Source: Egibacter rhizosphaerae
Lineage (GTDB): Bacteria; Actinomycetota; Nitriliruptoria; Euzebyales; Egibacteraceae
Length of the DNA: 64,000 nt
Assembly (NCBI RefSeq): GCF_004322855.1
Contig: NZ_CP036402.1
Location: 1,736,001 to 1,800,000, forward strand
Reading direction: 5' to 3'
Of the stretch, positions 3,647-20,080 are shown piece by piece (position 1 is the stretch's first letter; every line of letters begins with the position of its first letter). The position numbers and the translations under genes were made by a program. Under the pieces are notes generated by a model. That model was not told the origin of the DNA, ran no database searches, and saw only the letters and a list, made by a program, of their open reading frames with translations.

Positions 3647-3733
3647 TGGTGGAGGTGGGATTCGAACCCACGAGGGCTTTCGCCCTACCCGCTTTCGAGG
3701 CGGGCGCACTAGGCCTGACTATGCGACTCCACC
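3647..3733 (-). tRNA. tRNA-Ser (anticodon CGA)
   Basis: On the minus strand the acceptor 5' arm GGTGGAG pairs with CTCCACC at the 3' end. The anticodon stem CCCGC/GCGGG encloses the loop CTCGAAA, giving anticodon CGA, which reads UCG serine codons. The long variable arm AGGGCGAAAGCCCT is typical of tRNA-Ser, and the T arm contains GTGGGTTCGAATCCCAC. No complete CCA is visibly encoded: CC follows the base after the acceptor stem. The 5' end overlaps the last 15 bases of tadA on the same strand. Confidence 0.95.
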
Positions 3734-17580: not shown

Positions 17581-18144
17581 ATGACGGCCGTGCGTGTGCC
17601 GCGGGACGATTTCACTGGCGGCGCCTTGCCGCCGGTGTGCGTCCGTACGGGTGTGGACGCCGAGGCGACGGTGCCCAGCCGCGCGACCCGCGTGCCCCTG
17701 TGGATCTGGCCGCTGCTCGCGTTCGGGCTGATCCCGTTCTTCATCGCGCTCTTCTTCACGCTGCGCGTCGTCGAGGGTTCGGTGCCGCTGGCCCGACACC
17801 ATTCCGACGAGATCGCGCTGCTCCGCCAGGCGGCGCGGCTCGGCGCTGCCGTGGGCGCGCTCGCGCTCTTCGTCTGGCTGCTCACCCAGTGGGCGCCCTT
17901 CGCGCTGCTCGGCGTGGCGGCCCTGGCGACGGCCCTGGTCGTTTGGCTCGCGCGGCGTGACCGGGAGCCCACGGCGGCGCTGCGTGGTGAGGAGGTCGTG
18001 CTGCGCGGCGTTCATCCCCGGTTCCGGGATGCCGTGCGCGCGCAGTACCCGAGCCAGGCGGCGGGCCTACGGGGGATCGACTCCACCAGCGACGCGCCTC
18101 CGGGGGAGAGCCCGCCCGGCGAGGCCCCCGGCGACGAGCGATAA
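17581..18144 (+). CDS. Membrane protein of unknown function with a Cys-containing N-terminal motif
   Basis: I do not recognise a named family. The 187-residue product starts with a short domain containing GGALPPVCVRTGVDAEA, a pattern seen in several uncharacterised actinobacterial membrane proteins. A hydrophobic helix follows (IWPLLAFGLIPFFIALFFTL), then after a polar stretch two closely spaced helices (LGAAVGALALFVWLLTQ and FALLGVAALATALVVWLA). The C-terminal 50 residues are soluble, with HPRFRDAVRAQYP and a Gly/Pro/Glu-rich end. There is no ribosome binding site, but TAGGGT at 17564-17569 lies 11 bases before the ATG, suggesting a leaderless mRNA. It is divergent from pntAA. Confidence 0.7.
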   Translation: MTAVRVPRDDFTGGALPPVCVRTGVDAEATVPSRATRVPLWIWPLLAFGLIPFFIALFFTLRVVEGSVPLARHHSDEIALLRQAARLGAAVGALALFVWLLTQWAPFALLGVAALATALVVWLARRDREPTAALRGEEVVLRGVHPRFRDAVRAQYPSQAAGLRGIDSTSDAPPGESPPGEAPGDER

Positions 18145-18389: not shown

Positions 18390-18539
18390 CTACTCGCAGC
18401 ACTTGCCGACCCACCCGCACGCGTCGCATCGCCCGTGCGCACCCTCGGGGCGCAGGACCGTCTGCCAACAGTTCGGACACAGTTCGCCCGCCTGGTTGCC
18501 GCAGGCCGGCAACTCCCCTCGGTTCTCGCGGGGGGACAC
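18390..18539 (-). CDS. Small zinc-ribbon protein (49 residues)
   Basis: A short minus-strand frame from GTG 18539 to TAG 18390. AGGAGG lies at 18545-18550, five bases before the start; an earlier in-frame GTG at 18545 overlaps that site and is less likely. The product has seven cysteines: one in LPACGN, a first CPNC in ELCPNCWQ, a second CDAC in GRCDACGWVG, and a terminal CCE. The two CxxC knuckles about 14 residues apart make a zinc ribbon, as in small ribosome- or RNA-associated and rubredoxin-like proteins. No partner gene is evident: it sits alone in a 620-base gap, opposite in direction to the genes on both sides. The function is unknown. Confidence 0.65.
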   Translation of the reverse strand: MSPRENRGELPACGNQAGELCPNCWQTVLRPEGAHGRCDACGWVGKCCE

Positions 18540-18766
18540 CCTCACCTCCTGCTCGTTCCGCTCGTTCACCTGTCGGCGGCCGGGGTGACCTCAGGCTCAC
18601 CCTTCCGAAGGGACATGATGCAGCGCGGCCGACGCGCAGCGTGGAAGGTGGCGCGCGGCAAGCACGTACGATGCCCCTCGGAGGCGTGTGGGAGCATCGG
18701 GCGCGATCCCCACGACACCCACGCACCGAGACCCACGCACTGGGACCCGACGCAGGAGGAGGGCGT

Positions 18767-20080
18767 ATGGCGGGCGAGCTCGTGCGGCAGGTCGCGCGGG
18801 CCACGCCGGCCGACCGGAACCGCTACGTCGACTTCCTCCGCGTGACGGCCCTCGGCGCCGTGGTCGTCGGTCACTGGATCATCCCGGTGTTCGTGCCCGC
18901 GAACGGCGACTTCGCGGTTCACTTCATCATGACCCAGGAGCCGTGGACCCGCTGGGCCACGTGGCTGTTTCAGGTCATGCCCGTGTTCTTCATCGTGGGC
19001 GGCTACGCGAACGCCGTGGCCTGGACGCGGGCCGAGGCCGCGGGCGAATCCGCCGTCGCCTGGGCGAGTCGCCGTGCTCGACGGCTGTTGCGTCCGCTCG
19101 CGCCGGTGGTCGTGGCCTGGGTGGTGCTCGTCGCCGTCGGCCAGGCGGTCGGGGTCGAGGCGCGCTGGCTCACGTTCGCCTCGCAGAGCGCCCTGGTGCC
19201 CGCCTGGTTCCTCGCGGTCTACGTCGTGGTCACGGTCGCGGTCCCGATCACACTGCGCCTCGAGGAGCGGCTCGGTCTGGCACTGCCGGCGGTCCTGGCC
19301 GCTCTGGTGGCCGGGACCGACGCGCTCGCTCTCGGTGCCAGCGAGGAGGTGCAGTGGGCGAACTTCGTGTGGGTCTGGTTCGCCGTCCACCAGCTGGGAC
19401 TGCGCTGGCACCGTCGCGGGCTGGTGCGCCCGGTCGGCGGCATCGCGTTGCTCGTGGCCGGCGTCGCGTCGCTGGGCGTCCTCGTGACGCTGGCCGGCTA
19501 CCCGGTGGACATGGTGGCGGAGGAGAACGGACGCACGAACGCGACCCCGCCGTCGCTGGCGATGCTCGGACTCGCCGTCGCGCAACTCGGGCTCGTCGCC
19601 CTGTTGCGCCCACCGCTGGAGCGGGCACTCGCCCGTCCCGGCCTGTGGGGCGCGGTCGCGCTGGTCGGCAGCCGCATCATGACCGTGTTCCTGTGGCACA
19701 TGACCGCCATGATCGCGGTCGCCGCCGGCCTCGCGGCCGCCGGCTGGCTCCCTTTGCGGGACGCGCTCGACTGGGGTTGGTGGAGCAGCCGCCCCGTCTG
19801 GATGCTGATGTGCGCGGTCGTGCTGGCGGTCCTGGTCGCCCTCCTCGGCCGCGCCGAGCGGGTGCCCCGGAACCGGTCGGTCTCGCCCACGGGTGCCGTC
19901 GGGACGACCGCGGGCGCGCTCGTCACGGCCGTGGCCGTCGGCACCCTGTCGGCGGGTGGCGTGTACGACGCCGACGGCCCTCTCGGGCTCGCACTGTGGC
20001 CGCTCGTGGCGCTCCTCGCCGCCCTGGCCGCGCTCGGTGTCCTCGAGCGCGATCGGCCGACCGACGAGGTGTCGGGCTGA
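18767..20080 (+). CDS. Acyltransferase family 3 membrane protein (OafA/YrhL-like)
   Basis: A 437-residue integral membrane protein with about ten helices. The N-terminal RNRYVDFLRVTALGAVVVGHWI holds the conserved Arg and the catalytic-type His of acyltransferase 3 enzymes. VMPVFFIVGGYANAVAW matches the second family block (FFxxxGF), and IMTVFLWHMTAMI the last. Such proteins transfer acetyl or other acyl groups from the cytoplasmic face to sugars, lipids or peptides of the envelope; the acceptor here is unknown. The start is ATG 18767, with GGAGGAGGG five bases upstream. The frame is open upstream, but that stretch runs antisense over the zinc-ribbon gene. Confidence 0.85.
   Translation: MAGELVRQVARATPADRNRYVDFLRVTALGAVVVGHWIIPVFVPANGDFAVHFIMTQEPWTRWATWLFQVMPVFFIVGGYANAVAWTRAEAAGESAVAWASRRARRLLRPLAPVVVAWVVLVAVGQAVGVEARWLTFASQSALVPAWFLAVYVVVTVAVPITLRLEERLGLALPAVLAALVAGTDALALGASEEVQWANFVWVWFAVHQLGLRWHRRGLVRPVGGIALLVAGVASLGVLVTLAGYPVDMVAEENGRTNATPPSLAMLGLAVAQLGLVALLRPPLERALARPGLWGAVALVGSRIMTVFLWHMTAMIAVAAGLAAAGWLPLRDALDWGWWSSRPVWMLMCAVVLAVLVALLGRAERVPRNRSVSPTGAVGTTAGALVTAVAVGTLSAGGVYDADGPLGLALWPLVALLAALAALGVLERDRPTDEVSG

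Follow-up and report, generated by a model that had tools for sequence, protein, structure and literature searches.

A small zinc-ribbon protein family with an invariant C-terminal cysteine pair on actinobacterial chromosomes and in uncultured phages

Our findings reveal a genuine, conserved, single-copy gene of 49 codons in the actinobacterium Egibacter rhizosphaerae, the product of which belongs to a small zinc-ribbon family that apparently has never been described before. The gene lies in a stretch of 64,000 nucleotides of the chromosome, which we analysed as a whole and refer to as the window. Members of the family are found on the chromosomes of many actinobacterial families and on at least 189 viral contigs, and no Pfam, NCBIfam or PHROGs model covers them at curated cut-offs or with a clear E-value; likewise, a search of the open-access literature returned no paper describing the family. 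Two neighbouring cysteines at the C-terminus are invariant and may react with oxidants or metals, and their placement, like that of the redox cysteine in the tail of a class II ribonucleotide reductase (RNR), provides a concrete, testable prediction. Our best current guess is that the family functions in thiol redox or metal chemistry, which, if true, would give bacteria a thiol or metal module of very small size and phages an unexpected accessory gene.

The coding sequence occupies positions 18390 to 18539 of the window on the reverse strand, stop codon included, and initiates at a GTG that is preceded at a spacing of 5 by the Shine-Dalgarno sequence AGGAGG (18545 to 18550, reverse strand). 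Its product, VSPRENRGELPACGNQAGELCPNCWQTVLRPEGAHGRCDACGWVGKCCE, comprises 49 amino acids, seven of which are cysteines. The span of 18390 to 18550 given in the preliminary description correctly locates the frame, though its coding part ends at 18539 and the upper limit takes in the Shine-Dalgarno sequence. An alternative in-frame GTG at 18569 would extend the protein to 59 residues; it is without a Shine-Dalgarno sequence and the added residues are not conserved. The gene is the sole occupant of a gap of 622 bases and is antisense to both sides, since the convergent neighbour (17581 to 18144, encoding a membrane-like protein of 187 residues with no Pfam family) and the divergent neighbour (18767 to 20080, encoding an acyltransferase, PF01757) are both on the forward strand. 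The arrangement first recognized from the sequence, that of a seven-cysteine frame with a perfect Shine-Dalgarno sequence standing alone and antisense to its neighbours, is therefore borne out. A six-frame search with the pattern CxxC-x10-16-CxxC-x3-5-CC-stop gave one occurrence in the window and none in 60 random windows generated with a first-order Markov model, and just one copy in the whole genome, a single contig of 4.64 Mb, is convincing. Elsewhere in the window, a tRNA gene at 3647 to 3733 on the reverse strand is the only Rfam match at gathering score.

Relatives of the gene occur within the same family, in genomes G001, G009, G017 and G018, and within another family of the class, in G031, G033, G038 and G050, with the public records of the close relatives being Nitriliruptoria and Nitriliruptorales metagenome-assembled genomes (MAGs). 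The close relatives share the start and the Shine-Dalgarno sequence, which reads AGGAGG at a spacing of 5 to 6 in three of them (L070, L071 and L077) and AGGAG in another (L072), and show 67-84% identity. Compared with four close relatives from f1, the gene has a dN/dS of 0.10-0.15 at a pS of about 0.5 over the last 37 codons, a pattern that is less strong in the remaining five frames. That the frame arose by chance can be dismissed with near certainty: a consensus scan around it found no promoter or terminator, a scan that is uninformative in this GC-rich genome, and the flanking genes in relatives are unlike those of the window, but the low dN/dS and the conservation across many families and phages already refute the idea and uphold the original proposal of a real small gene. 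Across the phylum, profile searches of 395 genomes recovered approximately 27 clear members, distributed patchily over many families, and 14 members were present in 118 genomes of one order.

The window protein displays the pattern C-x2-C-x10-H-x2-C-x2-C-G-x4-C-C. In our alignment of 30 members (A4), Cys21, Cys24, His35, Cys38, Cys41, Cys47 and Cys48 are invariant, and Glu32, Ala34 and Gly42 are nearly so. On the reverse strand, the first knuckle (Cys21-x2-Cys24) is encoded at 18468 to 18479 and the second (Cys38-x2-Cys41) at 18417 to 18428; all four of these cysteines are predicted zinc ligands and are retained in every aligned relative, the opposite of the lack of conservation named at the outset as grounds for refutation. 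His35, encoded at 18435 to 18437, stands three residues ahead of Cys38, and the vicinal pair Cys47-Cys48, encoded at 18396 to 18401, is one residue from the C-terminus. In the chromosomal members, the pair is always found 1-7 residues from the C-terminus (38/38). The first cysteine, Cys13 (18501 to 18503 on the reverse strand, as computed from the frame), is common but not essential: it is present in 36 of the 38 chromosomal members, at a distance from the ribbon that varies from 6 to 16 residues, and is missing from several phage members. The preliminary description of a seven-cysteine zinc ribbon stands with respect to the knuckles, with the correction that the first cysteine is not essential. 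Most commonly, the core of the family reads CPxCGxxMxPEHAHYRCxxCGWRDSCCD; the window protein represents a divergent branch, with EGAH, GKCCE and one additional residue.

As a model from the single sequence was poor, we used an alignment-based structure model, which is of moderate confidence (mean pLDDT of 73.8, with 77-89 in the core) and has a ribbon hairpin with strands at residues 30-32 and 35-37. The two invariant CxxC knuckles together with this modelled hairpin place the protein in the zinc ribbon fold group, and we strongly infer that Cys21, Cys24, Cys38 and Cys41 hold one zinc in a single ribbon. The zinc-ribbon fold proposed initially is further supported by weak profile matches to many zinc ribbons, including RpoM, TFS, Csl4 and bL32. 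The best Pfam match of the window protein is to DZR_2, at 13.4 bits against a cut-off of 27, and the matches of other family members are weak and scattered (best Pfam E-value of 2.6e-5, to a C1 domain; best NCBIfam E-value of 0.001). In PHROGs, phage members gave E-values above 0.009 and the window protein had no match.

The genes around the chromosomal copies differ by lineage. An Rpf-like gene lies upstream in the MAGs of f1, an MFS_3 transporter gene is divergent from the zinc-ribbon gene mainly in lineages f27 and f74, and what we take to be DUF72-like and phosphatase-like genes stand beside it in f12. In G050 (L076:8210-8745), the stop codon of the member runs into what may be the GTG start of a downstream DUF2237 gene, which suggests translational coupling of the two genes in that lineage; a search for DUF2237 in the other loci found no recurrence. 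A conserved operon partner is ruled out, as the neighbours change between lineages.

Our leading, still tentative proposal is that the protein is a thiol module that stands alone and serves redox or metal chemistry. By analogy with the reductase tail discussed below, the zinc would be structural, and the ribbon would serve to present His35 and the vicinal Cys47-Cys48 pair as a reactive dithiol end. Such a small soluble module would most likely cycle between dithiol and disulfide, as an electron relay or as a sensor of oxidants or electrophiles; alternatively, the Cys47-Cys48 end could hold a soft metal. The proposal is consistent with the invariance of six cysteines and His35, the near invariance of Glu32, and the fixed proximity of the cysteine pair to the C-terminus. 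The acidic to neutral character of the protein sets it apart from typical nucleic-acid binders, and the variability of its gene neighbours fits a general thiol protein. Against the proposal, all of the conserved cysteines could be metal ligands, and the structure model is of moderate confidence.

The nearest mechanistic parallel that we can suggest is the zinc finger of the class II RNR NrdJ. The enzyme from Stackebrandtia nassauensis has six cysteines at its C-terminus that both bind zinc and relay electrons, with C920, C923, C936 and C939 as the proposed zinc ligands and C933/C945 as the redox pair (PMC5704485). In structure predictions of NrdJ, this redox pair and the zinc lie at opposite ends (PMC9669993), an arrangement that favours a thiol module. 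The NrdJ CRD tail (e.g., CFSCGIRMQRSGACHVCEQCGTTTGCS, from the genomes analysed) and the window protein have in common a CxxC...CxxCG-x4-C arrangement at the C-terminus, one zinc (predicted here) and an acidic to neutral character. Through CG-x4-C, Cys47 takes the place of C945. Unlike the tail, which is a domain of a 950-residue enzyme, the window protein is free-standing, adds a second C-terminal cysteine, and has the invariant His35 where the reductase has the redox cysteine C933, so that the six-cysteine set of the tail is incomplete in this family. The similarity to the tail is no stronger than that to an unrelated ribbon, with hhalign P-values of 8.3e-6 to the NrdJ tail and 4.2e-10 to the bL32 control; because the control matched better, we do not claim common descent, and the placement of the extra cysteine alone is what the two have in common.

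A second possibility is that the protein is a zinc ribbon that binds nucleic acid, the ribosome or RNA polymerase, which we consider unlikely. Foldseek searches of the model against the PDB returned mostly ribosome and RNA polymerase zinc ribbons, the top matches being ribosomal zinc ribbons, small archaeal zinc-ribbon ribosome factors and RNA polymerase subunits. The weak profile matches to RpoM, TFS, Csl4 and bL32 point in the same direction, and the phage copies could suit a role in host takeover. However, none of the fold matches is significant (best E-value of 0.35), and the invariant C-terminal pair and His35 are left unexplained. The mean net charge of the 38 chromosomal members is -2.5 (range -5 to +1), compared with +14 for bL32. 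With such charges and fold matches, the RNA or ribosome binding put forward in the preliminary description is not supported.

Metal handling is to us similarly improbable as the role of the protein. In addition to the ribbon zinc, a second site formed by His35, Cys47 and Cys48, joined by Cys13 where present, would store, sense or transfer zinc, copper or another soft metal. Seven cysteines and one conserved histidine in 49 residues would suit two four-ligand sites, and the prevalence of Cys13 among the chromosomal members agrees with this. Yet a second site that includes Cys13 is weakened by the phage members that do without this residue and by its variable distance from the ribbon. Furthermore, there is no consistent adjacent metal transporter or regulator, as the MFS_3 gene is adjacent mainly in the two lineages named above.

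Far less probable than either is that the protein is a stand-alone partner of class II RNR, acting in trans in the manner of the C-terminal zinc finger of the enzyme. The cysteine placement matches the NrdJ tail, and, for such an RNR, neither thioredoxins nor glutaredoxins were found to include the native reductant (PMC5704485). On the other hand, the NrdJ of the Egibacter genome and those of relatives have a complete tail. Nearly every genome of the class has NrdJ, but the zinc-ribbon gene is rare, and in the loci that we read the gene was not seen beside nrdJ. We found no association between the gene and NrdJ in the 395 genomes: 4 of the approximately 27 family genomes (G193, G216, G232 and G262) are without a NrdJ match, about the same rate as overall (51/395), and the gene is therefore unlike a reductase partner. 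The complete tail and this absence of association across genomes lead us to reject a split or trans-acting NrdJ tail. As a separate observation, the NrdJ of the Egibacter genome (L067, G000:C1:3929870-3934225) matches the model in three segments within a single frame of 1794 codons, compared with 940-1000 in related genomes; this hints at sizeable in-frame insertions, for example inteins, and the three-segment pattern also occurs in several relatives.

Returning to the proposed thiol module, comparison with other small zinc-ribbon proteins provides further context. We observed a second stand-alone and highly conserved zinc-ribbon family of approximately 50 residues in f15 genomes (L154-L166), which has a CSDP end; the frame at L158 ends CEVCGTEMFGLHCKLVCPNCGYRRDCSDP. 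This family (CEVCGTEMYGLHCKLVCPNCGYRRDCSDP) has the same CG-x4-C ending as the window family, which we count in favour of a thiol module. Its 'LHCKLVCPNCGYRRDCSDP' proteins, themselves uncharacterised, are free zinc ribbons of 50 residues, and the profiles of the two families match over the whole core (P-value of 1.8e-9), but these proteins have CSDP where the window family has CC-D/E and a loop cysteine where it has EHAH. The Haloferax zinc finger u-proteins HVO_0758 and HVO_2753, of the C(P)XCG type, are also free-standing, with fewer than 70 residues and two CPxC(G) zinc knuckles. HVO_0758 has four essential cysteines and a positively charged helix (PMC10716476). The window protein has CPNC, followed by Trp where most of the family has Gly, and CDACG within its 49 residues, a likeness to the u-proteins by description only; those proteins are archaeal, and neither a C-terminal CC nor EHAH is described for HVO_0758. 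The redox-regulated chaperone Ruc (Rv0991c), from which oxidation releases zinc (PMC7448276), is likewise small and actinobacterial, with a zinc ribbon in which four cysteines hold the metal, as predicted in the window protein. Unlike the window family, with its ribbon at the C-terminal end and varying neighbours, Ruc has only four cysteines and an N-terminal ribbon, depends for its activity on a long disordered tail, and is encoded next to chaperone genes; the family is thus not of the Ruc type.

A scan of viral contigs with an enlarged profile confirmed 189 relatives. Each of the best 80 of these has a frame with the complete motif close to the C-terminus, a conservation that is partly by construction because the scan looked for EHAH and CG..CC patterns. 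Searches of named phages and plasmids gave no convincing match, and the viral relatives are from uncultured phages. In the loci read, nearby genes encode terminase subunits, portal, endolysin, peptide deformylase, a Dps-like protein and dCMP deaminase, and WhiB-like genes, which occur in 11 loci, suggest that the hosts are actinobacteria. Some of the chromosomal cores resemble a phage core more than any other chromosomal core sampled; that at L110, for example, is 93% identical to a phage core and 81% identical to the nearest sampled chromosomal core. Gene exchange between actinobacterial chromosomes and phages is therefore likely, as judged from these sequence identities. In its broadest form, which we regard as doubtful, our proposal would make the family the first of a novel class of tiny stand-alone modules for redox or metal-thiol chemistry, zinc ribbons with a vicinal dithiol at the C-terminal end turned towards an invariant histidine, which would be exchanged between chromosomes and abundant uncultured phages, with the phages using it to keep a host thiol enzyme working in infection. 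On one phage contig (L190:2508-2957), a peptide deformylase gene is directly upstream of the zinc-ribbon gene, an arrangement for which no recurrence was seen in other loci. On several phage contigs (L197, L201 and L215), proteins with recurring motifs such as TKGxxxGHPFRGNQW or KGGPGSGRH are encoded beside the zinc-ribbon gene, sometimes in adjacent genes.
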